A DNA stretch of 64,000 nt from Candidatus Kuenenia hertensis. GTDB taxonomy: Bacteria > Planctomycetota > Brocadiia > Brocadiales > Brocadiaceae. Shown here piece after piece: positions 9,697-59,206 of the stretch. The first letter of the stretch is position 1; each line of letters opens with the position of its first letter. Both the position numbers and the translations under genes were made by a program. The stretch spans positions 1 to 64,000 of the forward strand of contig SOET01000001.1 of NCBI GenBank assembly GCA_021646465.1. Reading direction: 5' to 3'. The notes under the pieces were generated by a model that did not search any database, was not told the DNA's origin, and saw only the letters and a list, made by a program, of their open reading frames with translations.

Positions 9697-9702
9697 ATCA
9701 AT

Positions 9703-10467
9703 ATGCTTGCGAAAAGAATTATACCTTGTCTGGACGTTAAAGACGGACGCGTCGTAAAGGGAACAAATTTTGTGAACCTGAAAGATGCGGGTGATCCGGT
9801 CGAAATTGCATCCTTATATGACAGGGAAGGGGCTGATGAATTAACTTTTCTTGACATTACTGCGTCTCATGAGAAAAGGGATATTATCCTTGATGTTGTT
9901 CGGAAGACAGCAGAACAGGTGTTTATCCCCTTTACCGTAGGGGGAGGGATTAGAAACATTGATGATGTTCGTAGATTGCTGAACGCAGGCGCTGATAAGG
10001 TTTCAATTAACACTGCCGTGGTAAAAAATCCGGAATTTGTCACAGAGGCTTCCAGAAGATTTGGAAGGCAATGCATTGTGGTTGCCATAGATGTTAAGAA
10101 GGTACAAGATAATGCAAAATGGGAGGTATACATAAATGGCGGCAGAACACCAACAGGATTAGACGCAGTTCGCTGGGCTATTGAAATGGAGGACAGAGGT
10201 GCGGGAGAGATACTGCTTACCAGTATGGATCATGATGGTACGAAAGACGGATACGGTATTGAATTGAACAAAACAATTTCGGAATCGGTAAACATACCAA
10301 TTATTGCGTCTGGTGGCGCTGGTAAACGGGAGCATTTTTATGATGTTTTTACAGAGGGAAAGGCAGATGCAGCCTTGGCGGCATCAATATTTCATTACCG
10401 AGAAATTTCCATTCGAGAGGTAAAGGAGTATTTAATCGGGAAAAATCTTGTTATGAGAATGAAATAG
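9703..10467 (+). CDS. hisF: Imidazole glycerol phosphate synthase cyclase subunit HisF
   Basis: A 254-residue TIM barrel that, with HisH, makes imidazole glycerol phosphate and AICAR in histidine synthesis. Signature segments are [51 protein letters not shown]-like (here [12 protein letters not shown]), [12 protein letters not shown] and IIASGGAG. Catalytic aspartates in CLDVKDG and TSMDHDG are present. It begins six bases after thiG and so is in the thi operon; no other his gene is nearby, an unusual partnership. Confidence 0.97.
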
Positions 10468-43911: not shown

Positions 43912-44487
43912 AGTTAAAAATTGATTATTACGTTGTTGTTTGTAACGTGGAAAATGTTAATTAGTTAGGCAACAAATTGCAACAAAAAAATGATTATCAT
44001 AATATCTATAATTCAACCGGAGGAGAATTTTTTTGTTAATAATAAATTCAGCCAACAGCTATACAGGTTATTTTATTAAAGTAGTTCCATACTTAGAGCA
44101 TATTTTACCGAATATTTACTTTTATTTTTTGTCGTTTTCATTCGCTAATCTTGTGCCGGAAAAGTTTTTAATCAGAAAACTGCTATAAATGCATTGCATG
44201 TTGTTTAAAATCGGCATGATATAACTTTGCTGCAGAATTCAGTCGAAATTAATTGCCGGTAATTGACAGTGGCATGGCGGCCAATAAGTAGGGTTTGTAT
44301 GCCATATGTTCTTTTAATTGTCACTTATTTGTGCTACCCCAGTTATAGGAGCAATATCGGGTGACTTGTTGGTTTGTGTTTTGAAAGTATAATAAAGGTG
44401 TAATAAGATTGCGGCAGTGAATGCCCTTAAACGTGAACCTGCGCTGTCTTGTTTTATATCATTATTTTGTAAGAAGGAGGATGTGTT
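43912..44487. other. Long divergent intergenic region before the acidic/cationic protein cluster
   Basis: A 576-base stretch without coding signal, separating the minus-strand polysaccharide group from the plus-strand cluster. The left part is very AT-rich and carries a false ribosome-binding-like GGAGGAGAA at about 44020 without an open frame. The right end holds the promoter at 44366-44393 and the AAGGAGG Shine-Dalgarno at about 44475. No RNA gene is recognised. Confidence 0.5.
44366..44393 (+). promoter_or_regulatory. Candidate sigma70 promoter of the 44.5-57.5 kb cluster
   Basis: TTGTTG at 44366-44371 and TATAAT at 44388-44393, 16 bases apart, lie about 90 bases before the first gene. 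The -10 box is perfect and the -35 box has two mismatches. Confidence 0.6.
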
Positions 44488-45417
44488 ATGGAAGAAAGAT
44501 TGGAAGAAGAGTTAATGGAAGATCTTGCATACGAAGAGGCAGAGGGTGCTGCTGAGATGTTTGATGAGGAAGAGGGATTCGAAGACTACGATGCAGCCGA
44601 TGAATTATTTGAAGAAGAATGGGAAGGCGGAGATGAGGATTATTTTGAGGAAGATTATGGTGAAGAGGGATTTGAAGAATTCGAAGACTATGCTGAAGAT
44701 TATGGAGAAGATTACGGGGATGAGATGGAAGAAGAGGAGGAAGATGAACTTGACAGCGCTATGGCATATGCCCTGGGGGCTGAAGATGCGGACGAATTTT
44801 TAAAAAAATTATGGGGAGGAATTAAAAAGTTTGGGAAAAAGGCCAGTAAAGTTGCAGGAAAAGTAGCAAGGGCGGCAACGCCATTTGCAAAATATATTCC
44901 TGGCCCATGGGGCGCGCTAGCATCAAAAGGTCTTGGACTGCTTGGCAAACTTCGCGCTGAAGGCGCCACAGAGGAGGAAGCACTGGAAGCCTTCGCGGAA
45001 CTTGCTGCATATGATGAAGCAGCCATTCCTGTTGTTGCGGGATTAGCTGCACGGGCTCTTGTAAAGAACAAAGGTGCACGATTGTCATTTCCTGCACGTA
45101 AAAAGCTGGTCAAAAACATGAAGAAGGCGGCAAAAACGCTGGTTAGGAAGAAAGGGCCAACGGCAGTTCGTGCATTACCAAAGATAGTAAAGAGCGTCAA
45201 ACGCACCGCAGCGGTGAGAAGAACGCCAATTCGTGTTATGCCGAAAATAGTAGCGCGTACAGCTGCCAAGGTAGCAAAAAGTCCAAAACTTACGAGGAAA
45301 CTGTCCCGTCCTTCTCCAAAGGCAAAACGAATAATTAGACGTGTCGTTGGCAAAAAGATGGGAAGAAGCTATGTTCTGAAAGGGCCTGTACGTATTACAA
45401 TTTCAGGATCAGTATAA
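44488..45417 (+). CDS. Acidic-leader/cationic protein, 309 aa, founder of the cluster
   Basis: I know no characterised family. Residues 1-103 are almost pure acidic sequence (Glu, Asp, Tyr, Phe, Gly; runs such as EEEEEDELD) with a single basic residue near the start. At residue about 104 the charge flips: FLKKLWGGIKKFGKKASKVA and the following GKVARAATPFAKYIPGPWGA read like a linear amphipathic antimicrobial peptide. After a short acidic segment (EGATEEEALEAF), residues 185-309 are very Lys/Arg-rich, with repeats of the type RALPKIVKSV / RVMPKIVART. There is no signal peptide. AAGGAGG precedes the ATG. A smaller paralog is at 54636. The acidic part may neutralise the cationic part until proteolysis by the peptidases encoded next to it; this is inference. 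Confidence 0.8.
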   Translation: MEERLEEELMEDLAYEEAEGAAEMFDEEEGFEDYDAADELFEEEWEGGDEDYFEEDYGEEGFEEFEDYAEDYGEDYGDEMEEEEEDELDSAMAYALGAEDADEFLKKLWGGIKKFGKKASKVAGKVARAATPFAKYIPGPWGALASKGLGLLGKLRAEGATEEEALEAFAELAAYDEAAIPVVAGLAARALVKNKGARLSFPARKKLVKNMKKAAKTLVRKKGPTAVRALPKIVKSVKRTAAVRRTPIRVMPKIVARTAAKVAKSPKLTRKLSRPSPKAKRIIRRVVGKKMGRSYVLKGPVRITISGSV

Positions 45418-45438
45418 TCATAAAAGCAATAAATTCTA

Positions 45439-46728
45439 ATGAGACCGCAAATAACGAAACAATTTCTTGCAGCGAAGATTCGTGCCCTTACAGCAAGGGC
45501 ACGAAGGCTTGCAACATTGTGCCCCGGTGCTGTCGGTATACGGATAAAGGATAAACCCTATGCCCCTTCGGCGGCACATTACGCGGCAGCAAACAGACGG
45601 CTTGGGGAAATAGATATGGCAATAAAAAAACGACTTCATTTCCTGTTACGCAATTGGCAAAAGGAGCCACCGCAGCAGGTACTCCTTTATATTGCTTTGG
45701 TTGAAAGAGAAGTGGATCGTGCCAGAAGGGCGTTCGGGATGTTTTTTGAAATATTCTCTCAGAGGGGGTCGGTGTTCGCCCCGGCGCTTGCGGCACATGA
45801 TGCAATTGCTACTGATTGTTATGCCGCCGTGAGGAAATCAGCACCACTTGTTTTCAAAGGTCCTTTGTTGAAACCGCTTACGTACATGGAACATGGGTTT
45901 TCACCTGCCACCATGAGGCGTGGTGTCTCGTTAAGCAGGCTCCTGGGAGAACGGAATCCGTTTCCCATTATAAGGATTCCGTGGGACCGGGATAACCCGT
46001 GGCAGGCAGTATTTTTGCATGAGGTTTGCCATAATCTCCAGGCAGATCTTGGATTATGGCATGAGAATAAAGAATCGGTTACGAACCGTATGCTCCGCTC
46101 GCTTGGCGATCCCATGGTAACATCGGTATTTAGCCGCTGGCATAAGGAAATATTCGCTGATATTGCCTCTATTTTGCTTGGGGGGCCAGCCTCTGCCTGG
46201 GGATTGATGGCGTTTCTTGCCCACCCCGCTCCAAAAACCTTAACCTATAAACCCGGAGGCGTCCATCCAACGGGCTATTTGCGTGTTCTCATTTTCGCAG
46301 AGATGTTACGGAGAATGGGGTTTGAAAATGATGCGGCGAAAATGCAGAAGGTATGGAAGGGTTTTTATCAGCCAAAAGCAGGCCATAGAATTCCTGTACG
46401 TCTGCTTGAAACGTCAACAAAGACCATTCCCAACGTGGTGGATGAGATTGCATTTCAGACCAGGCGTAATCTTGCCCAGAGGGCGCTTGCCGATGTAATT
46501 CCTTTTGGCGCTGAGGATGAGCGCCAGATCCTGAGGGCGTCAAAACTTCTTATGCGTGGGATTCTTCCCGCGGATGTTCCTCCCCGGTTTCTGGTAAGCG
46601 CATGCAGTTATGCGCTACAAAGTAATGTTTCTTTGCAAAAACTATCCCGGATGGTTATATCATATTTATCAAAAATGGCTGCCAGACAGAGTTCTATTCA
46701 GAAAGAATCATGGCTGGTAGCCGCATGA
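45439..46728 (+). CDS. HExxH zinc-metallopeptidase-like protein, 429 aa
   Basis: Not assignable to a named family by eye. The N-terminal 120 residues are Arg/Ala-rich and helical. The centre carries FLHEVCHNLQ (HExxH at residues 194-198) and, 39 residues after its second histidine, KEIFADI, where E237 could be the third zinc ligand of a gluzincin. The residues between include LWHENKESVTNRM. The C-terminal 150 residues are helical (LLETSTKTIPNVVDEIAFQT). There is no signal peptide or membrane helix. It starts 21 bases after the 309-aa gene with a weak ribosome-binding site, so it is in the same operon. Proteolysis is suggested but not proven; the HExxH context could also be structural. Confidence 0.72.
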   Translation: MRPQITKQFLAAKIRALTARARRLATLCPGAVGIRIKDKPYAPSAAHYAAANRRLGEIDMAIKKRLHFLLRNWQKEPPQQVLLYIALVEREVDRARRAFGMFFEIFSQRGSVFAPALAAHDAIATDCYAAVRKSAPLVFKGPLLKPLTYMEHGFSPATMRRGVSLSRLLGERNPFPIIRIPWDRDNPWQAVFLHEVCHNLQADLGLWHENKESVTNRMLRSLGDPMVTSVFSRWHKEIFADIASILLGGPASAWGLMAFLAHPAPKTLTYKPGGVHPTGYLRVLIFAEMLRRMGFENDAAKMQKVWKGFYQPKAGHRIPVRLLETSTKTIPNVVDEIAFQTRRNLAQRALADVIPFGAEDERQILRASKLLMRGILPADVPPRFLVSACSYALQSNVSLQKLSRMVISYLSKMAARQSSIQKESWLVAA

Positions 46729-46739
46729 GGTGAAAGACA

Positions 46740-48827
46740 ATGAAAGTAAAAAACACTGAAAAATCTGCAACAAAAGATGTAACAATGCTTTTGCGAGATC
46801 GTCCACCAGCAACTGTTGATCTTGATAATTTAATGAGAAGGGTGTTAAGGGTAAGCGACCCAACTGATTCCACGCAGGTTGCCGAGGCATTAGGAAAATT
46901 ATATGAAGTTGAGTATGAGGTAATGTCACGTGAGGCGTCCGGACTTCCTTACCGGATGGTTCCTGCACTTCAGGCTGCGCCTATGGCTACGACGACAACC
47001 CATATAGAGTTGGAACAGGCAAAGAATGACGTTGAACGTGATTTAGCGGCGCTTATGAATAATTCCATCCTGAAAGACATTGTCCCTGAACTCCGGGGAT
47101 GGGCCACAGCTATCAGGACAGCAATTGCTGATGGAGTAAACGCAGCACGGTTTTCCCTCGATCCGCGTCAGAGGGATAAGACGTTTGCTATTCGCCGCCT
47201 TCTTGGCAATTACTCAAGAATCTCTCGTTATGTCGGCGCCTTAACGCCTACTCTCAATCAATCATACAGAAAACTTGCCCAAAGTCTTGATGAGGTGGCA
47301 GGAGTATTATTAGTAATAATGGGAGAGACCATTGCGAATATAGGCATGGGTGGCGGCAGATTTCTTTTGCAGTCTCCGGTAAGCGAACTGCAGGAGAGGA
47401 GAGATGCGGTCATTTATGCCCTGCGTAACCTAATTGGTTCAACACAGGAGGCATATGGGACGAATGACTGGCCAAGGGGATTGCAGGCCTATAGCCAGCT
47501 TCTGGAGCATTTAGGGAAAAACGCCCACCATGATCTGCGGGTACTGTTTCAGGAAAACGAAATTGCCCGTATGATGGATGAACTCATTCATCACGCAACA
47601 GGCAATACCTCTGAAGGTTTAAGGGCGCTGGGGTCTACGGCACAATTAACCCTGGAGCGGTTCAGGAGACTTATCTTGTTTGGACAGGGAATTATATCTC
47701 CGTCTTCACCGCCTTTAGCAGCATTTCTGACCTCTCTAAAATTATTTCTCGATGCATTTGACAATGCAGATAGCGGATATCGTCTTTTAACAATATCACG
47801 GCCCCCCGTATTATTTTACGGACTTTATGGTATTGGAGGGCAAGATCCCGCCAGCAGGAGACTTCTTGACCTGATTATTCTGCGGGGAAAACTTGCAGAA
47901 GAGCTTGATTGTTATCTTGGCTGTAATTGCGGTTCTGATGAGGCAAGGTGCCAGATAATCCTTGATAAAATACTCTATGACGTGGACCGGGCTATTGATC
48001 TTTATGCACTGGGAAGCGAGGATTTCGGAGAACCTGAGCAAAGATCAACCGCCTATGGATACGTCATTGAAGCTGTCTTGAGTACTATAATGGGTATCGG
48101 TTGCAGCCCAGGCATTAAAGAGGAAGATATTCCAGGGTGTGAATCTGGCAAGGACGTATTAAACAGGTTTTGTTCTGATATTGCAGGCAATGGTGATAAT
48201 ACTAAGAACTGTAAACCCACCTGTTTATATTGTGTTCCGAAAGGGTCTGCATTGGAAAAAACACTGGAGGAAATCAGGGATATACTCTGGTTTTATATTT
48301 TCAAGAAAAAAGATTTTTCAGGTGTTCCCGTTGGCATATTAGAAGATGCCGGATTTGGGAATCCACCCGTTATTTCTGTAAAATTTCAAACCGGCAGTCT
48401 TCGGGAAAATCTTAAATTGGTGGATGGTTGCAATAAGGCGGCGAATAACAGAGGCATCTATGGGGCAATAAAGCAAACACTTATGCCTAATATTATTGCA
48501 GACTGCAGCGAAGACATCCCTACAAATAAAATTCCAACCAGTATAAAGCGGCTGGAAAAGATGTTGAAGATTATTCACCAGGAACTTTGCTTTCAAGCGG
48601 ATACAGAAAGTAATTGGGAAAGTTTACTTCAGACAATGGCTTCTTCCTGCAACAAATTCAACGGCTTATTGGATCCGACAAAAGAAATCATCCAGTGTGC
48701 AATCAGTAAATTTAGTGGAACGGAAATAACACCTTGTCCGCCATTTGCCGTTACCATTCCACCACATTACGAAACGAGTTTGGATTCGCTTGCGAATGAT
48801 GTCACAAAAACAGGAGAAGGAAGATAA
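46740..48827 (+). CDS. Unknown 695-aa protein with cysteine-rich C-terminal half
   Basis: No family recognised. Residues 1-380 are helical, contain no cysteine and look like a repeat-rich scaffold (LTPTLNQSYRKLAQSLDEVA, ERRDAVIYALRNLIGSTQEA). From about residue 385 the protein contains some 16 cysteines, opening with ELDCYLGCNCGSDEARC and including NCKPTCLYCVPKG, GCNKA, DCSED and SSCNKF. The spacing resembles disulfide- or metal-binding modules, suggesting either zinc sites or an exported, oxidised state. No signal peptide is seen. GAGGTG precedes the ATG; it begins 11 bases after the metallopeptidase-like gene, so the two are co-translated. Its size makes it a candidate structural or adaptor component of the cluster. 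Confidence 0.75.
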   Translation: MKVKNTEKSATKDVTMLLRDRPPATVDLDNLMRRVLRVSDPTDSTQVAEALGKLYEVEYEVMSREASGLPYRMVPALQAAPMATTTTHIELEQAKNDVERDLAALMNNSILKDIVPELRGWATAIRTAIADGVNAARFSLDPRQRDKTFAIRRLLGNYSRISRYVGALTPTLNQSYRKLAQSLDEVAGVLLVIMGETIANIGMGGGRFLLQSPVSELQERRDAVIYALRNLIGSTQEAYGTNDWPRGLQAYSQLLEHLGKNAHHDLRVLFQENEIARMMDELIHHATGNTSEGLRALGSTAQLTLERFRRLILFGQGIISPSSPPLAAFLTSLKLFLDAFDNADSGYRLLTISRPPVLFYGLYGIGGQDPASRRLLDLIILRGKLAEELDCYLGCNCGSDEARCQIILDKILYDVDRAIDLYALGSEDFGEPEQRSTAYGYVIEAVLSTIMGIGCSPGIKEEDIPGCESGKDVLNRFCSDIAGNGDNTKNCKPTCLYCVPKGSALEKTLEEIRDILWFYIFKKKDFSGVPVGILEDAGFGNPPVISVKFQTGSLRENLKLVDGCNKAANNRGIYGAIKQTLMPNIIADCSEDIPTNKIPTSIKRLEKMLKIIHQELCFQADTESNWESLLQTMASSCNKFNGLLDPTKEIIQCAISKFSGTEITPCPPFAVTIPPHYETSLDSLANDVTKTGEGR

Positions 48828-48854
48828 TTACTTACGAAAATGAGGAGATAAAAC

Positions 48855-49406
48855 ATGTCTGCAAGAACAGCATTTCATAGGAGCATCAGAAGTATTGGGA
48901 GGGTTACCAGTACTCCCGTTAATTTAACAGATATCAATAAATATTTAGAGTCAAGTGTTCAGAGTTTAAAAAATCTGGAAAAAACCCCTGAGAAATTAGG
49001 TGAAATTAACAGAAGTTTAAATAACATTGCAGCCGGTTTAGAAAAAATAGGGTCTTTATTAGCACATTTACCTACAGGCAACGAATGGATTGTAGAAGGA
49101 CATGTAATCGATGAAAATAAGAATGGAATCGAAGGGTTGACCATAAGTGTTTTCGATAAAGATCTTTTTTACGATGATAGACTGGGAACTGCAAAGACAA
49201 ACAAAAATGGATATTTTAAAGTAACCTACCGGACGGAGGATTTCAGAGATCTCATAGAAACAAACCCTGATATATTTATTACAGTATATGAAGGAGGTAA
49301 CAGGGTTTATTCCATCGAAACACCTGTAAGATGGGAGTCTGGCCGTAGGGAGTATTTTTGTATACAAAAAACCAGAAAAGGATGGTTCGAGTTCAAAAAG
49401 GAATAA
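48855..49406 (+). CDS. Transthyretin-like (carboxypeptidase-regulatory-like) domain protein, 183 aa
   Basis: Residues 1-75 are helical with coiled-coil character (SVQSLKNLEKTPEKLGEINR). Residues about 78-165 are a beta-sandwich of the transthyretin/carboxypeptidase-regulatory type: VEGHVIDENKNGIEGLTISV, then FDKDLFYDDRLGTAKTNKNG and YFKVTYRTEDF, then DIFITVYEGGNRVYS. Such domains bind proteins or glycans and are often fused to or encoded with secreted peptidases. The N-terminus is basic but lacks a hydrophobic core, so no signal peptide. GAGGAG lies just upstream. It sits between the cysteine-rich protein and the second HExxH protein. Confidence 0.78.
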   Translation: MSARTAFHRSIRSIGRVTSTPVNLTDINKYLESSVQSLKNLEKTPEKLGEINRSLNNIAAGLEKIGSLLAHLPTGNEWIVEGHVIDENKNGIEGLTISVFDKDLFYDDRLGTAKTNKNGYFKVTYRTEDFRDLIETNPDIFITVYEGGNRVYSIETPVRWESGRREYFCIQKTRKGWFEFKKE

Positions 49407-49502
49407 AAACAAGGTTTTTATTTTAGTATGTATTAAACACAGTAACTATGATAGTTACCTACTGTGGAGAATATAAATGGCTATTAAGAACGAGGGAGAA
49501 CT

Positions 49503-50594
49503 ATGGAATATCAAACTCATGAAACAATAAAACGACTGTGGCAGAAGTTCCTCAGGGAACAGCTTGCCGCTATGGCGCCTGAAGAACGTCAGAAATACGA
49601 ACAGCAGTTCGAGGAAAGGTTTGAAGATCTGATCAAGGGGGCCTCTGCCAATGGCGGCGACGGATTCCTTGATCTTATCGGATTTGGTGAAAAAGGCGCG
49701 CCTCCTTTTGAGGAACTTTCCTATCCGTTTATTAAGCCTGATTTTGATGATGCGGTAATGCCAAGCCAGCTCCATGCCGCGGCAGAACTTTATTTTATCT
49801 ACCAGCATGAACGCATGAAGGTCTTTAAAGTGGTGGATGTCCTCCGGCGGCTTTTTCAGATGGGGCGTATCAGAATACAGCGAGGGCCCGGTGCAAGGGG
49901 GCTTTATTTGCTGGAGAAATGGAAACCCCTCAGATACACACTGCGTGACCGGATGATTGCTTACCGGCGGGTTTTTAACTACGGAACGGCTCCTTCACCT
50001 GCAGGGGCGATCGTGAATAAAAATTTTCACAATCAACTGGTGGCCTTTATGACCGCATTGGCCCAGTACTTCAGGGATCACCTGATCAGTGAGGTAATTC
50101 GTGGGGGCCCTATGACGTCACAAAGGCCTTTTGGGAGCGTGGCAACGGTACAGCGGCTGGGAATTGATCTGAGGTACGCAATCGACCGGTCAAGCTATGG
50201 GAATATCCTTGCATTGACGCATGAAGTAGGGCATTACCTGAAAACGGTACTTCAGCTTTTTGATTCGCCCGATATCATGAAGGCATTTGATGCAAATAAC
50301 AAATGGGATGTAATTGAAATTATATCAAACCGCCACCTCGGCGGGATGGCGGAGCTCTCTCAACGGGCAAAAATGGCGGAAAGCGGCAGAAGAGTACTCC
50401 AATGGGTCTCTGACAGTGATTTTAAAACGGCAATAGATCCAATGCTCTTTCAGTCTGAAGCGCGCCCCTTCGGACCTCATGCTGAGGCCTGGGTTGCTGC
50501 CTACCGTATGACGCCTGAAGGGAGAGGTTTTCGCGGTGTGACTTCGACCGTGAAAAGAATGATAGGTATGCCGTTACAGCAACAGATGGTATAA
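49503..50594 (+). CDS. Second HExxH zinc-metallopeptidase-like protein, 363 aa
   Basis: A protein not closely alike to the first HExxH protein in overall sequence. The N-terminus is charged and helical (TIKRLWQKFLREQLAAMAPE). The zinc motif is LALTHEVGHYLKTV (HExxH at residues 240-244) and GPHAEAWVAAYRM lies about 80 residues later, where E328 is a candidate third ligand. The middle contains RIQRGPGARGLYLLEKWKPL and the RDRMIAYRRVFNYG segment. No signal peptide. A GAGGGAGA ribosome-binding site precedes the ATG. It is 96 bases after the transthyretin-like gene. Likely role: peptidase acting on cluster proteins or on an external target; inference. Confidence 0.74.
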   Translation: MEYQTHETIKRLWQKFLREQLAAMAPEERQKYEQQFEERFEDLIKGASANGGDGFLDLIGFGEKGAPPFEELSYPFIKPDFDDAVMPSQLHAAAELYFIYQHERMKVFKVVDVLRRLFQMGRIRIQRGPGARGLYLLEKWKPLRYTLRDRMIAYRRVFNYGTAPSPAGAIVNKNFHNQLVAFMTALAQYFRDHLISEVIRGGPMTSQRPFGSVATVQRLGIDLRYAIDRSSYGNILALTHEVGHYLKTVLQLFDSPDIMKAFDANNKWDVIEIISNRHLGGMAELSQRAKMAESGRRVLQWVSDSDFKTAIDPMLFQSEARPFGPHAEAWVAAYRMTPEGRGFRGVTSTVKRMIGMPLQQQMV

Positions 50595-50609
50595 GGAGAT
50601 AAAGAAAAA

Positions 50610-51509
50610 ATGTCAGTCATGCCCCCATCACTTTCAGTTACGGTAACTACAAAACGAAAGGCCTGTGTGATTGATACCACCCTTGCCCTTTCGCGGTATG
50701 GCCTCCTTTTAACCCAGAGGCTTGGTGATGAATTTGACCTGTGGCTCGCCAGGGAATTATGGCAGATACTCGATAATACGCAGTATTATTTGTCAAACCC
50801 GCAATTTTTAACACCGGTAAGGCCTGGTATACAAAGAAAAACGGGGAAAATCCATGCAAACGGGGGAAATGAAGCAAAATATTTTCTTAAGGATATACTG
50901 AGCCAGTGGGATATCGCCCGCATGGAAACGGATCTTGCAGGATTAAAAATATTTTGGATTGGCGATGCAATGAGTGAGTCGTTGCTTCCGAAAAATGCGG
51001 ATCAAAATTTAATTCACCGTTTTGAAACGCTTGCCCGTTCTCTCGATATAAAAATAAAGAAAAACGGGAGTGACACTCAACAGGAAAATATATTTGTTGA
51101 CTGTTTCAGGGATGTTGTGGCATTAACTGCGGCATTGATTCCTCACAGAGGATTTATACTTACCCGCCATGGTATGATGAGTGATGAACTGCCGGAAAAC
51201 GAACCCATTATATGTTCATATCTCAGAAACTGGGGAATACCATGCTACAGGGTTGGAATGGATCAAAAGATTGAAATAGAGAAAGCTTCTCTCTTTCCGA
51301 TATTTGCCAGGGCCGGGGTTACTGAATTAATGTGGGCGGGTTTGAATCTTGCGGTCGTACATATTTGTGCGCCTGACGCGATTATTATGCCTTTCATAAG
51401 CAATGAAGATGATGTTTTTGAAAGGGCTTTAGAACCTCTTCACGAACAAAGAGAGGAAGAAATGAAAGACTGGTGGAGGCATGCGGTATGCTTCTGGTAT
51501 CCGCTTTAG
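50610..51509 (+). CDS. Unknown protein, 299 aa
   Basis: Not recognised. The N-terminus SVTVTTKRKACVIDTTLALS, with D22, then ARELWQIL with an acidic residue, and later CFRDVVALTAAL, recall the spaced acidic residues of PIN-type nucleases, but the resemblance is weak and I do not assign it. There is no signal peptide or membrane helix. AAGGAG lies ten bases before the ATG, and the gene begins 15 bases after the second HExxH gene, so it belongs to the same transcript. Confidence 0.65.
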   Translation: MSVMPPSLSVTVTTKRKACVIDTTLALSRYGLLLTQRLGDEFDLWLARELWQILDNTQYYLSNPQFLTPVRPGIQRKTGKIHANGGNEAKYFLKDILSQWDIARMETDLAGLKIFWIGDAMSESLLPKNADQNLIHRFETLARSLDIKIKKNGSDTQQENIFVDCFRDVVALTAALIPHRGFILTRHGMMSDELPENEPIICSYLRNWGIPCYRVGMDQKIEIEKASLFPIFARAGVTELMWAGLNLAVVHICAPDAIIMPFISNEDDVFERALEPLHEQREEEMKDWWRHAVCFWYPL

Positions 51510-51537
51510 GAACATGGGTTCTTTATAGAAATACATT

Positions 51538-52572
51538 ATGAAATCAATAGAAAGCAGACTTGCGGGTGAGTTAAGGATCAACTCCCGGGACCTGGTGATG
51601 CTGACCGTATCGGGACAGATTGCTCATCCGTTAGGAAAATCATCTCCATATCGGATTGGACACGATGGTGTGCCGCGGATTCTGCCTGGCACAGGGGGAG
51701 TTGTTATAAATTGCCGTATCGGCGACCGGTGTGTCGGCCTTGCAGGAGACCATATTGAGCCGGGAGTGTCTCTTCGTAACAATAAGACGGAAATTGTCGG
51801 TAAAAAGAATGGCCCTAATCTTGCCCTGTTAACGTATTCGTGTATAGGGAACGTAGCTCAGGTAGTTACCGGCCCGTGCAAAGGAAAACTGGGAACGGTA
51901 ACCGGTAAGCATGGAGGAGTTGAAAATCTATTGGTTGATTTTGATTCTTCCGTGCTGAAACGTCTTCGGATTGGTGACCAGATACAGGTGTATTCGTATG
52001 GACTTGGGCTTCAATTCATTGATCATCCGGAAGTAAGCGTTTTCAGCTGTTCCCCAAGGCTGATAAAACGCTGGGGGCTGAGGTCTGAACAAAAAAGGAT
52101 ACAAGTACCTGTTACACATTTTATACCGGCATCAATTATGGGATCAGGTATTGGCAGAAGCAGCGCTGTTCGCGGCGATTACGACATCCAACTGTTTGAT
52201 CCTGATGTCAGAAAAAAATACAAGCTTGAAACCCTTCGTTTCGGCGATTTCGTGGGGATACTCCATTCAGATACGAGATTCGGACGTTCTTATCGTAATG
52301 GAACGATTACCATAGGGATAGTTGTTCATGGCGACAGCACTGTAAGCGGACATGGACCTGGTGTTATGACTCTTTTAACTGCAACGGGGAAATATCTTGA
52401 ACCTGTGAGAGACCCTAAAGCAAACCTTGCCATTGCACTAGGACTTCGAAAATTACCATCGGTGCGGGCATACCGCCCCCTGGTTCAGACAAAACGAATT
52501 CCGGATAAAATAAGGATGAAGCATAAAATTGATTCAGTTTATTTTTCCAACATGGTCAGTAAATATAAATGA
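51538..52572 (+). CDS. DUF4438-like protein, 344 aa
   Basis: The sequence LVMLTVSGQIAHPLGKSSPY, VVINCRIGDRCVGLAGDHIE, PGVSLRN, LTYSCIGNVAQVVTGPCKGK, GTVTGKHGG, and the C-terminal IGIVVHGDSTVSGHGPGVMT resemble, from memory, the DUF4438 family, whose function is unknown. The chain is rich in glycine and beta strands and has a histidine/cysteine pattern (GLAGDHIEPG, HGPG) that could bind metal. No signal peptide. It follows the 299-aa gene by 28 bases without a good ribosome-binding site, so translation may be coupled. An enzyme of small-molecule metabolism in a peptidase cluster would be odd; a metal-dependent hydrolase is one possibility. Confidence 0.68.
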   Translation: MKSIESRLAGELRINSRDLVMLTVSGQIAHPLGKSSPYRIGHDGVPRILPGTGGVVINCRIGDRCVGLAGDHIEPGVSLRNNKTEIVGKKNGPNLALLTYSCIGNVAQVVTGPCKGKLGTVTGKHGGVENLLVDFDSSVLKRLRIGDQIQVYSYGLGLQFIDHPEVSVFSCSPRLIKRWGLRSEQKRIQVPVTHFIPASIMGSGIGRSSAVRGDYDIQLFDPDVRKKYKLETLRFGDFVGILHSDTRFGRSYRNGTITIGIVVHGDSTVSGHGPGVMTLLTATGKYLEPVRDPKANLAIALGLRKLPSVRAYRPLVQTKRIPDKIRMKHKIDSVYFSNMVSKYK

Positions 52573-52760
52573 ACAGATTAAATAAACCATATAAGTTTAC
52601 ACATATTAAAAATAGAAATAAAAATGTTATTGAACGAGCGAAAAAATAGTATTTATTGCATGAATCTGTTTTATAACAGTAATAAATATGAAAAAAGATT
52701 TACTATGTTAATGAACATTAATATCAAATAAAATAATCTTCAAATAAGGAGGGAATAGAT

Positions 52761-53141
52761 ATGATTGCAGATAAAAAACTAATTCGGGATGATGATGAGT
52801 TGTATAAACTGATACTCAACGAGTTTGATGAGGCAGAAAAAGAAATAAAAACAAAAAGAACAAGTCAGGGCAAGAAAACCGATGATGAATGTGATATTAC
52901 CAATGAATATACTGATGATGAGGGGTACGCGGGAAATGCAAGAGAAGATGTAAAGGCGTTACTAAGTGAAGATGACCAGAAATTTATCGAGGATACCGTA
53001 AAATGGCTTAGTAAAAGAGAAAATAAAGATGCCATTGTTTCCAGGATTTGGGATTTATTGGTAGAATCAGAACCGGATTCTTTTTATAACCCGGAGGAGA
53101 AAGAAGTATCAATCGACTCAAAAACAGATAAAAAAGAATAA
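52761..53141 (+). CDS. Small acidic protein, 126 aa
   Basis: Acidic, hydrophilic protein (DDDELYKLILNEFDEAEKEI, TDDECDITNEYTDDEGYAGN, ending EEKEVSIDSKTDKKE). Residues about 60-105 look helical (KALLSEDDQKFIEDTVKWLS). No family recognised, no signal peptide. A strong AAGGAGG lies before the ATG, in a 188-base AT-rich gap after the DUF4438-like gene, so it may start a new transcript. It immediately precedes the serine peptidase gene, and its acidity parallels the leaders of the two cationic proteins; a chaperone or inhibitor for the peptidase is possible but unproven. Confidence 0.68.
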   Translation: MIADKKLIRDDDELYKLILNEFDEAEKEIKTKRTSQGKKTDDECDITNEYTDDEGYAGNAREDVKALLSEDDQKFIEDTVKWLSKRENKDAIVSRIWDLLVESEPDSFYNPEEKEVSIDSKTDKKE

Positions 53142-53169
53142 CGATACGATAACCATGATGTAAAAATGA

Positions 53170-54036
53170 ATGGAATATACTATGGAAGCAGAGACAGACA
53201 GAGCAATAGATGTACTTGAAGATCTTTCCGGCGGGATTGATTATGCGCTTGTTGGACCACGGGATAATAGAGTGCATGAAATCAGAACAAAGCGTTTTCC
53301 TTTTAATACGATCTGTTATCTTGGCAGAGATTTTGGTGATGGGTTATGGCGCGGATGCACCGGCACATTAATAGGCCCAAGAACAGTGCTCACGGCAGGG
53401 CATTGTGTTTACAGCCATAAATTCAAACGTGCGCCTGAAAAAATTACGGTAATTCCCGGACGTTCTGGCCGGGATACAATGCCATACGGCTATATTATCT
53501 CAACACAATATTATGCACCTAAACGGTATGTAAAAGCTGTTGCTGCCCGGCATCCTGATCGAAAAAACTTTGATTATGGAATTATCGTTTTACCACGGGC
53601 ATTTCAGGGTATCAAAAAGTTTATGAAGTTGAAGCCGCTGCCTCAGGCGGAGTTTGACAAGATTAAACATACAAAGTTGATAACAATAGCAGGCTATCCG
53701 GGAGACAGGCCAGTTGGTTCGTTATGGCGGCATACGGAGAAGCTTAAAAAATCAACCCCGCAACGGCTTTTTTATACTGTTGATACATGTCCTGGCCATA
53801 GTGGAAGCCCTGTATGGTTCCTGGAGTGGAAGAACAGAAAACGTTTTATTATTGGAGTACACACCTCTGGTATTTTAGATGAGCTGGGACGGTCATATGG
53901 GTGTTCAAAGGGAACTGTTCTGGCACCGCCAGGATTAATGAACAGCGGTGTTCGCATTACACCGGATGTTGTCGCCAATATTCGGTATCGAAATCGGAAG
54001 GTGAATGGCGTAAAGACAATGATAAGACTTCCGTAA
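53170..54036 (+). CDS. Trypsin-like serine peptidase (V8/S1B-like), 288 aa
   Basis: Chymotrypsin-fold serine peptidase with the complete triad: His in VLTAGHCVYS, Asp in NFDYGIIVLP and Ser in TCPGHSGSPVWF. GCTGTLIGPRTVLTAGHC matches the S1B/V8 type. The N-terminal 35 residues are acidic (MEAETDRAIDVLEDLSGG) and could be a propeptide; there is no signal peptide. The mature beta-barrel would begin near RTKRFPFNTICYLG. Glu/Lys specificity cannot be read off. It overlaps nothing, begins 28 bases after the acidic gene, and is the best-supported enzyme of the cluster. It could cleave between the acidic and cationic parts of the neighbouring proteins. Confidence 0.9.
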   Translation: MEYTMEAETDRAIDVLEDLSGGIDYALVGPRDNRVHEIRTKRFPFNTICYLGRDFGDGLWRGCTGTLIGPRTVLTAGHCVYSHKFKRAPEKITVIPGRSGRDTMPYGYIISTQYYAPKRYVKAVAARHPDRKNFDYGIIVLPRAFQGIKKFMKLKPLPQAEFDKIKHTKLITIAGYPGDRPVGSLWRHTEKLKKSTPQRLFYTVDTCPGHSGSPVWFLEWKNRKRFIIGVHTSGILDELGRSYGCSKGTVLAPPGLMNSGVRITPDVVANIRYRNRKVNGVKTMIRLP

Positions 54037-54080
54037 TACCAGCATAATAATCAGTACCTGTTTCCATGGAGGGAAAAGGG

Positions 54081-54593
54081 ATGCCTTTAAATATTGAATT
54101 TTCGAATGGAATTGAAAGTTCTGGAAAACAAACGAAAAACCCCATATTCATACATGAAAAGGAGAATTGTTCAGTTGCCGAATTCAGTATATTGCATCAA
54201 AAATTTCTTGTTTTCCCTTTTATACCCGGAAATACACATGCCAACTCTCACTTCATAAACAACAAATATAAAGTGGTGGGTGAATTAAGAATAAACAAAA
54301 AACGATATCTCGTAACCAATTCAGATGACAACAGTAATTGCGGAAAGAATACAAATAATCTTGTAGAACTGCTGACCAGACGAGAGCTTCAAATTGTTAT
54401 GCTTGTGGCTGAAGGAAAAGTCAATAAGCAGATTGCTCATCAATTGAATATTAGTGAATGGACCGTTTCTACACATCTGAGACGTATTTTCTCAAAATTA
54501 GGCGTGGATAGCCGGGCATCTATGGTATATCAATGTTCGGAGGTTATATCCAATTATTCAAAGCAGTTTAATTGGAGAAAAAAAGAGATGTAG
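54081..54593 (+). CDS. LuxR/GerE-type HTH transcription regulator, 170 aa
   Basis: The C-terminus is a LuxR-type HTH: LLTRRELQIVMLVAEGKVNK, QIAHQLNISEWTVSTHLRRI, FSKLGVDSRASMV. The N-terminal 95 residues (ILHQKFLVFPFI, KVVGELRINKKRYLV) are not a receiver domain with phosphorylatable Asp; they look like a small ligand-sensing or PAS-like fold, of unknown type. I start at the ATG at 54081, seven bases after GGAGGG; an in-frame ATG at 54066 overlaps that Shine-Dalgarno and is rejected. The gene is within the cluster, between the serine peptidase and the second cationic protein gene, and is the likely local regulator. Confidence 0.86.
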   Translation: MPLNIEFSNGIESSGKQTKNPIFIHEKENCSVAEFSILHQKFLVFPFIPGNTHANSHFINNKYKVVGELRINKKRYLVTNSDDNSNCGKNTNNLVELLTRRELQIVMLVAEGKVNKQIAHQLNISEWTVSTHLRRIFSKLGVDSRASMVYQCSEVISNYSKQFNWRKKEM

Positions 54594-54635
54594 TGCATTG
54601 CAGATAATAGGTTATTTTTAGAAAGGAGGAACTTT

Positions 54636-55073
54636 ATGGGATACGGCGGGTTAAGTTTTGAAGAATTAGAAGAAGATTATTTTGATGATGTATTTGATGA
54701 AGAATTCGAAGATGAATATTTTGATGAAGATGCATTTGATGTATTTGCAGAAGAAGAGTCAATGTACGATGAGGAGGAGGAAGACGAATTCGTCGGGGCC
54801 CTTGCTGGTCTGGCTGCGCAAGCATTACCAAGTGTTGCGAAGAAAGTCGTTCCACAGGTTATGAAATGGGGAAAAAGAGTTTTTCGGGCAGGAACGAGAG
54901 ATCTGAAACGTGCTGCACCAAAAATTATTCAGAATACCGTAAGATCGTTGGCAAGAAGTCCACGAAACGTCAGAATGAATCCATTAGTGGTAAAAAGGAT
55001 GTTAAATAAAAAATCCAGACCCTACATAAGACGTTACCGACGTTATCCGGGGAAGTATGCTTGCCGCAGGTAA
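54636..55073 (+). CDS. Acidic-leader/cationic protein, 145 aa (paralog of the 309-aa protein)
   Basis: Residues 1-51 are acidic (Glu/Asp/Phe/Tyr-rich, ending DEEEEDEF), with no Lys or Arg. Residues 52-70 are small and hydrophobic (VGALAGLAAQALPSVAKKVV), and residues 65-145 are Lys/Arg-rich (KWGKRVFRAGTRDLKRAAPK, NTVRSLARSPRNVRMN, ending RRYRRYPGKYACRR). It has the same two-part charge layout as the 309-aa protein and shares a RAAPKI / SLARSP repeat word with its RALPKI / VAKSP region. AAAGGAGG precedes the ATG. Function unknown; possibly a DNA-, membrane- or polyanion-binding effector held inactive by its leader. Confidence 0.78.
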   Translation: MGYGGLSFEELEEDYFDDVFDEEFEDEYFDEDAFDVFAEEESMYDEEEEDEFVGALAGLAAQALPSVAKKVVPQVMKWGKRVFRAGTRDLKRAAPKIIQNTVRSLARSPRNVRMNPLVVKRMLNKKSRPYIRRYRRYPGKYACRR

Positions 55074-55112
55074 AACTGTAAAATGTATTTAATAAAATTA
55101 AAGGTGTAAAAT

Positions 55113-55538
55113 ATGAAGTATATGCTTGAAAATAAGTGGTATGGTGTTGAAGCAGCATTTGATAATGCCGTTACGTTGCTTGATGATTTAATTGAGGAAG
55201 AATTTGACAATGCAACGGAAGCAGGATGGCCTGATGTATGGCGTGTTATTACAAAAGGCAGGACGCGGGAAAGAAGACCGATTTTTAAAGCGGTAGGGAA
55301 AAGACTTGGGCCTGCCCGATCACGCCGTGCAGCCTATGCCTGGCCTGGTGTTTTCGTTCAGGGCAATCCGTCGCACGTGCGGCAATTTGCTCAAGGCGCG
55401 CGCATAACCTTAATAGGTCCTCCCGATCCTCCACACAATGGCGGTTTAAGGCACTACCATGCTTACTCACCGCAAGGCAGAAGGATACACATCTGGTTTG
55501 GAAGAAGAAAACCGAAAGGGGACTTTTTTGCAACGTAA
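55113..55538 (+). CDS. Small toxin-like protein with His-rich C-terminus, 141 aa
   Basis: Residues 1-40 are acidic (LLDDLIEEEFDNATEAGW), the middle is Arg-rich (TKGRTRERRPIFKAVGKRLG, ARSRRAAYAW), and the C-terminal 60 residues read GNPSHVRQFAQGARITL, GPPDPPHNGGLRHYHAYSPQ, GRRIHIWFGRRKP. A short domain closing with HYH and HIWFG resembles C-terminal toxin domains of polymorphic toxin systems, but this is a visual impression only. AAGGTG precedes the ATG, and a terminator-like hairpin follows. No immunity gene is evident beside it, unless the acidic N-terminus or another cluster protein serves that role. Confidence 0.65.
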   Translation: MKYMLENKWYGVEAAFDNAVTLLDDLIEEEFDNATEAGWPDVWRVITKGRTRERRPIFKAVGKRLGPARSRRAAYAWPGVFVQGNPSHVRQFAQGARITLIGPPDPPHNGGLRHYHAYSPQGRRIHIWFGRRKPKGDFFAT

Positions 55539-55542
55539 GTGT

Positions 55543-55565
55543 ATCGGGAGCATTCCCGATTTTTT
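55543..55565 (+). terminator. Candidate terminator after the 141-aa gene
   Basis: ATCGGGA-GCAT-TCCCGAT forms a 7-bp stem followed by TTTTT. The same 21-base word occurs inverted at 55683-55703 and 55851-55871, so this may be an end of a repeat element and not a dedicated terminator. Confidence 0.55.
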
Positions 55566-55871
55566 GTAAAAACACAATTGGGGGGGAATAGTAACTCAAG
55601 CTTTCAGCTTGAGTTAAAAATATCACAAGCAGGATGCTTGTGATACAATAACAGTCTGTCACTGGCATATGTAAAGAGTTACAAAAAATCGGGAATGCTC
55701 CCGTCATCCCTGAGCACATCCGCAGACTCTGTCTGTAGGTCGGGTTTCTTACCCGACAATCCGTTTTCATATTGTATTGTCGGGTAAGAAACCCGACCTA
55801 CTCCCAAACTTTCCTGCCAATACAATATGAAAACGGTAATTAGTTTCTGCAAAAAATCGGGAATGCTCCCG
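55545..55871. repeat. Mosaic of nested palindromes
   Basis: This gene-free stretch (55539-55975 is non-coding) is built of palindromes: the 21-mer AAAAAATCGGGAATGCTCCCG occurs at 55683-55703 and 55851-55871 and inverted at 55545-55565; CTCAAGC/GCTTGAG at about 55594-55612; TATCACAAGCA/TGCTTGTGATA at about 55620-55645; a perfect 26-bp inverted repeat with arms at 55735-55760 and 55776-55801 built on TCGGGTTTCTTACCCGA; and CCGTTTTCATATTGTATTG (55761-55779) repeated inverted at 55818-55836. The GGGTTTCTTACCCGAC word also occurs at 5946-6013. It separates the toxin-like gene from the PLP-enzyme gene. Confidence 0.85.
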
Positions 55872-55975
55872 TTGTAAGTATTGCAGTGTATCGTTAACCG
55901 CTTTCATGCGAAGGGTCGAAAGAACTTTCCTGTTGAGCAAATTATTAAAAAAACAAAAAGAGTTCATCCGTTGCG

Positions 55976-57244
55976 ATGCGACATGCGGCCAAGATAAAAA
56001 CTTTTGAAGGTGTAAAAAGGTTTAACAAATACAGGCGTCCTTCTTTTGTAGATTGCTTTCAGCGGAACGGTTTAATCTATCAACACATAGAAGCGGTAAA
56101 AGGGGTTCATTTTAAGGTACGTGGTCATTGGATAGTAAGCTTTATTTCCTCATGCTATCTTGGCCTGAATCAAAATCAGTATGTGAAAGGCGCCGTATGC
56201 GATGCCGTAAAAAGATGGGGCACGTCACTTGGAACACCTCGTATCCTTGGGATTGACAAGCTTACTTCCTCTGTTGAGTCAAAAATTGCCCTTTTAACAA
56301 GAAGGGAAAAAGCCATTATTTTTCCCTCTACCACTCAACTTGCCATTGATGTATTACCTTTACTTTCGGGCCCCAATGGTGCACTTTTTATGGATGAATG
56401 GGCATATCAGACAAGCTTTGAAGGGGCGTTCTCTGCAAGGAAAACCGGAGCGAAGTGTTATTGTTTTAAACATAATGACCCAACAGCCCTTGAAAGCATG
56501 TTAAAGAAACACGCTTCGTCAGGGAATAACGTAATCGTTTGCGATGGCGTGTATTCTTCAGGGGGACAGAAGGTGTCTCTTTCAGATTTTATAGAAATTG
56601 CCCGAAGATTTCATGCGCTTATTTATGTTGACGATGCCCATGGGATTGGTGTTTATGGTAAAATAGCGTCCTCAGTAAAAACACCTTATGGATATGGGGG
56701 TGGGGGGACGCCTGTTTACTTTAATACGATTGCTTCAAACAGAATTCTCCATGTTGGCACCTTATCGAAGGCATTTGGAGTCCCTGTTGCATTTATAGCG
56801 GGGCATACACATTTTATAGAGTATTTGAAATATCACGCAAAAGCCTTTGTTCATAGCAGCCCGCCATCCCTTCCGGTACTTGCTGCTGCTGAAGCAGCTC
56901 TTACGGTAAACGAGTATTCCGGAGACCACTTGAGAAATGTTTTATACCAACGTGTACAGCAATTCAGGCAGGGGCTTACCAGGATAGGAATAAAACGGCG
57001 GAGCTGTAATTACTTTCCAATACAAACGATTTATTTCTCTTCCAAAAAAACGGCAACAAAAGCTGCAGCATATTTGAGAAGAATGGGAATATGGGTGCTA
57101 CTCCAGCTTGAACCTCCCGACAACCCTTATGGTGGTGTGATACGGTTTATTATCACATGTCTTCATAAAGAGAACGATATAAATAAAGCAATTGATGCAA
57201 TATCATTCCTGCAATCGAAAAATTTAAGAATACGGGTATTTTAA
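55976..57244 (+). CDS. PLP-dependent alpha-oxoamine synthase (AONS/BioF-like aminotransferase fold)
   Basis: A 422-residue fold-type I PLP enzyme of the 8-amino-7-oxononanoate synthase / serine palmitoyltransferase family, which condenses an amino acid with an acyl-CoA. Features are SSCYLGLNQNQYV, TPRILGIDKLTSSVESKIA, ALFMDEWAYQTS, VCDGVYSSGGQKVSLSDF, IYVDDAHGIGVYGK and the PLP lysine in HVGTLSKAFGVPVAFIAG. The N-terminal 35 residues are basic and longer than in BioF. The substrate is unknown; no biotin gene is near. Its start ATG at 55976 has a weak ribosome-binding site, after the palindrome region. It is followed within two bases by the DUF2442 gene. Whether it belongs to the peptidase cluster is uncertain. 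Confidence 0.9.
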   Translation: MRHAAKIKTFEGVKRFNKYRRPSFVDCFQRNGLIYQHIEAVKGVHFKVRGHWIVSFISSCYLGLNQNQYVKGAVCDAVKRWGTSLGTPRILGIDKLTSSVESKIALLTRREKAIIFPSTTQLAIDVLPLLSGPNGALFMDEWAYQTSFEGAFSARKTGAKCYCFKHNDPTALESMLKKHASSGNNVIVCDGVYSSGGQKVSLSDFIEIARRFHALIYVDDAHGIGVYGKIASSVKTPYGYGGGGTPVYFNTIASNRILHVGTLSKAFGVPVAFIAGHTHFIEYLKYHAKAFVHSSPPSLPVLAAAEAALTVNEYSGDHLRNVLYQRVQQFRQGLTRIGIKRRSCNYFPIQTIYFSSKKTATKAAAYLRRMGIWVLLQLEPPDNPYGGVIRFIITCLHKENDINKAIDAISFLQSKNLRIRVF

Positions 57245-57863: not shown

Positions 57864-59120
57864 CTAAGTTTCAGGGAACTTGCTGAGTTGGGCTTCTGGA
57901 ATTCGTAGAGCATACCTTAAATAATTCTGGTTTTCAAAACGGAAATACAGGATAGGGATCAGATGACTATGTTCCATGCCCTTATCCGTTAGTTGTACTA
58001 TGTTCTGCTTCTTCGAAAGCATGCCTTCCCGGTCCATACGTTCCAAACCTTCCTTTACAACTGTTAGAGAGTCGAGCCCGAAACGATCGACCATTGCTTC
58101 ATAATGAAATCTTAATTTCTTGGTAAGTCCCATAAATACCCAGCGCCTGATTTGGTCTTTCTTACTAAGTGAAATAGAAAGGATATTATCGTTGTTTTTT
58201 ACGTATCCATTCAGATCTTCCGTGTTCCTGAGATAACAACCGTCAACGAAAGACTGGGCCGACACACCGAATCCAAGTATTTCACCACCATCCCAGTAGT
58301 TTCTATGTTGGATGCATTCGTACCTGTAGCTTATTCCGAAATGGGCTGTATGAATACGCAAGTATTCCCACTCCAGCAAACGGTTGATTGCTTCTTGATA
58401 ATGGGCTATCCGGAGATAGGCGGGAAGGAGCAACGCATTCTTACAGACCATCCTCATAAAAAAACCGGCCTTAGCCTGAAGGGTAAAAGGGTAAACGGAG
58501 ATATGGGGGACAGATAATTCAACCAGCACATCCACACTCTGCACAACCGAAGCAGTATTCTCTCCCGGGAGACCAAAAAGGATGTCACAATTGATATTGT
58601 TGATGCCTGCGGACCTGGTTGACTCCAGAAGACCAGGCAAAGCATCTTTGGTTCCTTCCCGTCCCATGGCGGCAAGGACACTATCATCTACGTTCTGAAC
58701 GCCAAAACTGAGACGATTAACTCCGATTTCTTTAAAAAACCCTAATTTTTCCTGCGTTGTAGAGGACGGGTTACATTCCACAGTAACCTCAGGAATTGTC
58801 CTGAGATCCCAAAAACGTGTCAAGATCATGACCAGTACTTCCCACTGCTTCAACGATAATATGGATGGAGTGCCTCCTCCAATATAAAGTGAATTCACTA
58901 CTACCTGCTTACCTTCATAGGCTGACCAACGGGCACTGATCTCCCGTTCCAGCGCTTTAAGATAACAGAATCTTTCCTCTTCGCTCGTTCCTGTCACAGA
59001 AATATAAAAACAGAAGTCACATTTCGATTTACAAAAGGGAATATGAATATACAAATCCACGCCTCTGTTGAGGTGGTGAACGCTGGAAGGCTGTTTCTTG
59101 TCGGTAGTTATTGTGAACAT
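57864..59120 (-). CDS. HemW-like radical SAM protein (coproporphyrinogen oxidase-like)
   Basis: A 418-residue radical SAM protein of the HemN/HemW family without a B12 domain. The N-terminus VDLYIHIPFCKSKCDFCFYI carries the cluster ligands C30, C34 and C37. IGGGTPSIL, VECNPSSTT (HemW usually has EANP), RLSFGVQNVDDSVLAAMGR and NCDILFGLPGENTASVVQS follow, and the C-terminal HemN-type domain has GFGVSAQSFVDG. HemW proteins are haem chaperones; others in the family act on different substrates. In this window it heads the downstream end of a minus-strand run of radical SAM genes. Confidence 0.88.
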   Translation of the reverse strand: MFTITTDKKQPSSVHHLNRGVDLYIHIPFCKSKCDFCFYISVTGTSEEERFCYLKALEREISARWSAYEGKQVVVNSLYIGGGTPSILSLKQWEVLVMILTRFWDLRTIPEVTVECNPSSTTQEKLGFFKEIGVNRLSFGVQNVDDSVLAAMGREGTKDALPGLLESTRSAGINNINCDILFGLPGENTASVVQSVDVLVELSVPHISVYPFTLQAKAGFFMRMVCKNALLLPAYLRIAHYQEAINRLLEWEYLRIHTAHFGISYRYECIQHRNYWDGGEILGFGVSAQSFVDGCYLRNTEDLNGYVKNNDNILSISLSKKDQIRRWVFMGLTKKLRFHYEAMVDRFGLDSLTVVKEGLERMDREGMLSKKQNIVQLTDKGMEHSHLIPILYFRFENQNYLRYALRIPEAQLSKFPET

Positions 59121-59206
59121 CCTTTCTTTGTTACCGGATATTAACTTTTTATACAGTCCTTTGATAGTGGTCTATATTTTAATAATTAATAATTTTTACT
59201 GTAACA

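Follow-up and report, generated by a model that had tools for sequence, protein, structure and literature searches.

Is a protein that switches abruptly from acidic to cationic the precursor of a hidden antimicrobial peptide, or does its charge split serve something else? The question arises from P0001, a 309-residue protein encoded in the window (the whole stretch of 64,000 nucleotides of Candidatus Kuenenia hertensis DNA analysed here). The sequence-only reading of this gene proposed that an acidic propiece masks a cationic effector resembling a linear antimicrobial peptide, and that a cut near residue 104 would release it. Our analysis makes it nearly certain that P0001 is a member of a widespread family of charge-block proteins (AB) that has no name so far, and that the family resides in a conserved gene cluster. 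It is more likely that P0001 holds enzymes together than that it stores a hidden antimicrobial peptide. The features of the locus are listed in Table 1.

Table 1. Features of P0001 and of the genes that follow it in the window
Feature	Position	Strand	Basis or remark
P0001, AB1-type protein, 309 aa	44488..45417	+	ATG start, AGGAGG-like sequence directly 5'
P0001 acidic block, residues 1-103, net -53	44488..44796	+	charge count; mostly low-confidence in AlphaFold2 model
P0001 residues 104-290, predicted helical domain preceded by a cationic amphipathic helix that starts at the invariant F104	44797..45357	+	alignment, charge count, model
metp1, 429-aa zincin-like protein, constant partner of AB genes	45439..46728	+	HEVCH at 194-198, W..E..AD at 234-241
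o695, unnamed, in p570 position	46740..48827	+	54% identical in L103; hhalign finds no homology to p570 family
183-aa protein, transthyretin/carboxypeptidase-regulatory-like domain	48855..49406	+	related to a domain of cyanobacterial p570 proteins
p380 family member (metp2)	49503..50594	+	hhalign prob 100, 33% identity to family; HEVGH present
o299, unnamed cluster protein	50610..51509	+	also in L103, L054, L100
DUF4438 protein	51538..52572	+	common to L103 cluster (64%)
o126, small acidic protein	52761..53141	+	seen only in window and G010
Trypsin-family serine protease, acidic N-terminus MEYTMEAETDRAIDVLEDL, putative cargo	53170..54036	+	Pfam Trypsin E 1e-10; no obvious Sec signal by reading
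LuxR-type (GerE) regulator	54066..54593	+	Pfam GerE E 3e-19; hhalign prob 99.8 to regulator of most AB loci
acid2, AB2-type second acidic-to-basic protein, 145 aa	54636..55073	+	AB2 profile 38 bits
o141, small protein, acidic leader VEAAFDNAVTLLDDLIEEEF, putative cargo	55113..55538	+	no Pfam match
Aminotransferase class I/II (AONS-like), last gene of shared island	55976..57244	+	Pfam Aminotran_1_2 E 4e-24

The charge switch at residue 104, from which the sequence-only reading had started, was confirmed by counting. Residues 1-103 contain 16 Asp, 38 Glu, no Lys and, as claimed, a single basic residue (R4), giving a net charge of -53, and they are followed by a stretch (residues 104-130) with no Asp or Glu and a net charge of +9. 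In 20,000 shuffles of the whole protein there was not one in which the first 103 positions held at most one basic residue; the lowest number found was 7. The Lys/Arg-rich region reported after residue 185 is likewise there, with 23 Lys, 17 Arg and no acidic residue among the 124 residues 186-309 (net +40). A second acidic block (residues 155-185, net -7) had escaped the earlier reading. The layout is thus an acidic block (1-103), the junction motif ADEF104L, cationic and zipper-like helices (104-157), the short acidic block, a K/R-rich helical domain extending to approximately residue 290, and the tail LKGPVRITISGSV. The amphipathic character proposed for the cationic stretch was borne out by hydrophobic moments of 0.68 (18 residues from position 104) and 0.74 (from 111-112). 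No Sec-like start was seen in the sequence of P0001.

In a genome of another genus of the same family (G010) the copy of P0001 is 87% identical in amino acid sequence. Between the two copies dN/dS is about 0.06 overall, with values of about 0.045 for residues 1-103, 0.046 for residues 104-185 and 0.07 for residues 186-309, all of them approximate since dS is near saturation. Because the ratio is this low relative to a copy in another genus, the gene must be real, and the values point to strong purifying selection on all three parts. A more distant copy, in a Competibacteraceae metagenome-assembled genome (L103), shows 42-44% identity.

The gene after P0001, metp1, encodes a predicted zincin. 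The residues H194, E195, H198, E237 and D241 are invariant in 42-43 aligned sequences, HExxH is present in 74 of the 78 family members, and the AlphaFold2 model of metp1 has a pLDDT of 89. The protein resembles gluzincin-type zinc peptidases in combining HExxH with a conserved downstream glutamate, a potential ligand located in the W..E..AD motif 39 residues past the second His. It differs from them in that it gave neither a Pfam match nor a fold match in the PDB at E<=0.001. The p380 family was considered as a second metallopeptidase and dropped: only 2 of 52 members, those of the window and G010, contain HExxH.

A tblastn search with metp1 led to a Paraburkholderia plasmid on which two acidic-to-basic ORFs precede a metp1 homolog. 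The AB locus set then came from a single scan of GTDB genomes, for which three metp1 sequences were aligned as the query, with ORFs called mechanically; since the scan kept no more than the 80 best relatives of the Paraburkholderia metp1, the frequencies given here describe that metp1 clade. Judged by their record titles, these 80 loci span at least eight phyla (Acidobacteria, Cyanobacteria, Actinobacteria, Chloroflexi, Verrucomicrobia, Planctomycetes, Armatimonadetes and Proteobacteria). In 74 of them metp1 is immediately preceded by a charge-split ORF, two more (L093 and L100) have an AB gene recognizable by homology, and in the remaining four metp1 starts within 437 nt of the contig end. 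One or two AB genes were therefore found directly before metp1 in all 76 loci with upstream sequence, and, judged by gene order, the AB-metp1 partnership is constant. The same charge cut-off, applied in any order, was passed by only 7 of 1020 other ORFs in the 80 loci, the window and G010, and two of the seven were P0001 and its G010 copy. The acid-before-base order of the AB ORFs (128 of 128) was built into the selection filter and is not counted as evidence. The sequence-only reading had named homologs lacking the charge split as contrary evidence; instead, the split recurs in relatives from many phyla, and the initial clue proved to be the diagnostic signature of the AB family.

Profiles of the two AB types were built without the window. 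The AB1 profile matched residues 101-309 of P0001 with 29 bits, against 1.8 for the best of 200 local shuffles, and the AB2 profile matched the C-terminal part of acid2 with 38 bits (best local shuffle, of P0001 and L103, 9.8). Because these matches exceed those of the shuffles, the window encodes one protein of each type, P0001 as AB1 and acid2 as AB2. The charge architecture is shown to recur in AB proteins: an acidic block, then cationic amphipathic or zipper-like helices, then a strongly basic helical domain that is predicted to be folded. Only F104 and P231 are invariant columns in the AB alignment. The zipper-like segment is, by inspection, missing from many AB2 proteins, and P0001 (z -0.6) does not show the EFE alternation that typifies the family (median z 3.6). 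Searches of plasmids with P0001 and of viral contigs found no new relatives, and a Paraburkholderia AB query matched only itself on plasmids.

Some AB proteins have unusual forms. In Nostoc sp. CHAB 5844 (L100:8010-9938) AB1 and AB2 are fused in one ORF of 643 aa, which hints at joint work. At another locus (L104:6173-13472), a distant metp1 and a caspase-like gene adjoin the genes of two AB proteins that have additional N-terminal domains, in one case a C92/NlpC-P60 amidase domain. Many AB2 proteins (L034, L035, L027) end in a Cys-rich tail such as CRCCGQLLR, possibly a zinc-binding element.

Neighbour clustering of 83 loci gave a core consisting of a LuxR regulator (at 64 of the 83 loci compared), AB1, AB2, metp1, p180, p570 and p380, often with genes for an M20 peptidase and an amidohydrolase behind it. 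The counts in the 52 well-flanked loci were 50 for AB (35 with two copies), 47 for p570, 44 for LuxR, 34 for p380, 29 for M20, 18 for p180 and 14 for amidohydrolase, all of them BLAST lower bounds. No Pfam family was found above cut-off for AB, metp1, p180, p570 or p380, and the core genes tested, AB included, matched no convincing family in NCBIfam, PHROGs or PADLOC. No PADLOC model matched AB, metp1, o695, p380 or o299; the results were a weak LmuA match to the trypsin and otherwise LuxR gene matches only. Open-licence papers, a partial coverage of the literature, yielded no description of the AB proteins, the cluster or the WLFEAP leader described below. With the AB-metp1 pair inseparable in all testable loci, its core represents a large blind spot of the family libraries used. 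On rhizobial and Burkholderia plasmids (L020, L022) distant metp1 or p380 homologs adjoin CHAT, S8, patatin and phospholipase D genes.

The genes between p380 and M20 vary from locus to locus and encode murein hydrolases and binders, trypsins, M35 peptidases and nucleases. Among 33 downstream proteins, chosen by position and inspection, Pfam identified PG_binding_1 (six times), OmpA (three times), Trypsin and M35 (twice each), Amidase_2, M15, SLT and CHAP, as well as a DNA/RNA endonuclease (Endonuclea_NS_2) and GIY-YIG. An N-terminus with a net charge of -8 or lower was found in 8 of the 39 genes in this position, compared with 3 of 234 elsewhere (rank test, p 7e-5), whereas a signal-like hydrophobic start was present in 2 of the 39 and in 43 of the 234. 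As far as can be judged from their predicted N-termini, the downstream genes thus show an excess of acidic starts and mostly lack Sec-like signals. The remaining 31 of the 39 lie above -8, and clear leaders occur on a subset only. Besides the putative cargo of the window (Table 1), G010 has an amidase with an acidic leader.

The leaders differ between lineages. Acidobacterial cargo proteins begin, for example, with MRDTELELELEDLMNVLAESDLESE; a profile of these leaders matched its training members only, so the leaders are either lineage-specific or alike by composition, not one sequence motif. Cyanobacterial cargo starts with NQWLFEAP, and a related sequence, MQYEAMFEAP, is found on the AB proteins encoded at these loci. 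WLFEAP-like leaders were found in 15 ORFs, all of them AB or downstream cargo, and the QWLFEAP coding pattern had five matches in 13 whole cyanobacterial genomes, all inside the AB cluster (reversed control, 0). These matches show a leader common to AB and cargo proteins and, in the cyanobacterial genomes searched, restricted to the cluster. A further tag, alternating [DE] with hydrophobic residues (e.g. AREFEFEV), is found at the C-terminus of 16 of 52 p380 proteins and in 8 of 1109 other ORFs (at most 2 in shuffles); the p380 of the window is without it. The EFF junction motif was not seen among the cargo leaders examined.

The best explanation of these observations, tentative as it is and held with somewhat less than even confidence, is that AB1 and AB2 form a charge-block scaffold that co-assembles with tagged lytic enzymes. 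Acidic blocks would pair in trans with basic helical domains, and basic domains with acidic cargo tags, as the architecture of the proteins suggests. Assembly in the cytoplasm could stockpile lytic enzymes, metp1 might mature or open the AB assembly, and its release could occur by lysis or by an unknown export route, after which it would act on the walls of competing cells or of the producer itself. The data speak for AB as the carrier, which is constant, and for the enzymes as cargo that can be exchanged. Counted for the scaffold are the place of AB upstream of metp1, the rarity of the charge cut-off elsewhere, the AB1 and AB2 profile matches and the core counts, along with the acidic cargo N-termini, the lytic content in Pfam, the WLFEAP leaders, the p380 tags and, in a further genome of the same taxonomic family (G234), the fusion of an AB module to a C92/NlpC-P60-like amidase domain close to a caspase-like gene. 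Counted against it are the 31 of 39 cargo genes without a strongly acidic leader, the absence of the EFE alternation from P0001 and of the p380 tag from the window, the restriction of the p380 HExxH to the window and G010, and the limitation of the scan to the best 80 relatives of the Paraburkholderia metp1; nor was a secretion apparatus that could move cytoplasmic enzymes to a cell wall recognized in the cluster. A wider claim, which is possible but on the unlikely side, is that of a widespread yet undescribed bacterial assembly system in which metp1-matured AB scaffolds package interchangeable lytic enzymes by means of acidic or WLFEAP leaders and deliver them outside by a route other than Sec, Tat or a contractile injector. 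Should the leaders prove to be sorting tags, bacteria would have a new way of recruiting Sec-less murein hydrolases, proteases and nucleases, and the leader itself would be a short portable tag.

Known systems provide partial parallels. It has been reported for cavins, which coat caveolae, that negative disordered regions flank positive helical regions and that fuzzy electrostatic interactions are needed for assembly (PMC7875971). Cavins form a eukaryotic membrane coat, and no sequence or fold match to AB was found, so that the analogy is one of architecture only. In amyloids, RFRFR peptides find a complementary template in the peptide FEFEFEFE (PMC5770463); the same alternation of acidic and aromatic residues appears in the EFEGEFE runs of the AB family and in the p380 tag, but these peptides are short and synthetic and P0001 does not have the alternation. 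By analogy with the two examples, electrostatic assembly is physically possible. Polymorphic toxin and effector clusters also combine a constant core with variable lytic, nuclease and protease domains. The AB cluster may be comparable, with variable murein-, protein- and nucleic-acid-active domains downstream and the AB-C92 fusion, and with shared leaders on a subset only. It differs in having no recognized delivery-domain family or PADLOC system and in that its constant part consists mostly of separate AB proteins.

Alternatively, the leader could be the export or packaging signal of an undiscovered secretion route and the AB proteins secreted membrane- or wall-active effectors instead of scaffolds. 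We consider this rather unlikely. It would account for leaders common to AB and to peptidoglycan-active enzymes without Sec-like signals and for a motif restricted to the cluster, and the glycine-zipper-like and cationic helices would, by sequence, suit membrane insertion; however, the AB genes are constant where the enzymes vary, and no apparatus gene was recognized in the cluster. As in the extracellular contractile injection systems (eCIS, including PVC and Afp), Sec-less enzymes or toxins share an N-terminal tag near a conserved core cluster. In contrast, the eCIS signal confirmed for Pdp1 has a hydrophilic, positively charged character, and a signal sequence conserved among eCIS has not been detected (PMC11297309), whereas the leaders of the AB cluster are acidic or WLFEAP. 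No phage sheath gene (PF04984) was found in the genome of the window (G000), in G010 or in G234, which makes a contractile injector unlikely and shows that contractile injection is not required; a PF04984 match was found in 15 of 24 other AB-bearing genomes and in none of the remaining nine.

The proposal that P0001 is a precursor, in which an acidic propiece neutralizes a cationic antimicrobial effector until metp1 or the trypsin cuts at 103/104, is supported by the conservation of the charge split across the family. F104, the first residue past the acidic block, is one of the two invariant positions, the predicted zincin gene is always the next gene, predicted protease genes adjoin, and the hydrophobic moment at 104-129 is high. 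A propeptide model for the F104 step is possible. P0001 also has, like precursors of antimicrobial peptides, a charge-complementary propiece and a cationic segment, but the mature part would not be short and unstructured or amphipathic. It would comprise 206 residues, and the AlphaFold2 model (35 sequences as input) shows a helical domain at about 150-290, with block pLDDT mostly 76-96, that takes in the Lys/Arg-rich region as well as the second acidic block. The N-terminal acidic block is for the most part uncertain in the model, helices at about 78-120 have moderate confidence, and PDB and viral structure searches gave no fold match at E<=0.001. The structure prediction called for by the sequence-only reading thus points away from a freely releasable linear peptide: the "antimicrobial" stretch is predicted to open a longer zipper-like region as its first helix, and the Lys/Arg-rich region to belong to a folded domain. 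Neither a secretion signal at the start of P0001 nor a dedicated exporter or secretion apparatus among the annotated cluster genes was recognized. Furthermore, acidic or lineage-specific leaders are also carried by enzymes encoded nearby in which there is no cationic domain to be masked, acidic tags are found at the C-terminus of p380, and many AB2 proteins are without the zipper-like segment. The masking role is therefore mostly unsupported, and we regard this explanation as improbable.

It is improbable, too, that the role of AB proteins is to form condensates inside the cell or to bind polyanions (DNA, RNA or polyphosphate), with the acidic block as autoinhibitor and the enzymes as mere neighbours. 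The strongly basic helical domain would fit this role, and the way in which charges are patterned along polyampholytes determines how compact they are and how they phase-separate (PMC7503639, PMC8397398). Such binding would not explain the leaders common with peptidoglycan-active proteins or the lack of Sec-like signals, and AB gave no nucleic-acid-binding family match. Compositional drift in a low-complexity protein of no specific role can be practically dismissed: in its favour, the model has low confidence for most of the acidic block, whose identity across phyla is low, but this reading is already contradicted by the conservation evidence, namely the low dN/dS in all parts, the metp1 adjacency in every testable locus and the profile match above shuffles.

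The window and G010 have an island in common, which extends in the window from about 44310 to 57244. Its aligned blocks are each 71-87% identical in nucleotide sequence, its right end is found in G010 in fragments only, and its G+C content is 43% compared with 38% in both flanks. P0001 is missing from two genomes of the same genus and from the other 20 genomes of the family that were searched. In the Competibacteraceae genome the same order is found (AB, metp1, o695, p380, o299, DUF4438, LuxR), with 62-64% identity for metp1 and 73% for p380. This distribution and the same-order cluster suggest that the cluster is mobile or horizontally shared. In G010 the AONS-like aminotransferase retains residues 1-85 and 352-410 only, i.e. 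it is a decaying copy, and the acid2 copy (L004, reverse strand near 9593-9727) has kept the acidic half while the basic half is deleted. Directly to the right of the island, at 57864-63329 of the window, four ORFs that read as radical-SAM-like lie in a row on the minus strand. Farther to the left (28721-30940), the window encodes a protein that, by reading, seems to combine a glycoside-hydrolase-type domain with a four-helix, S23-like domain at its C-terminus.
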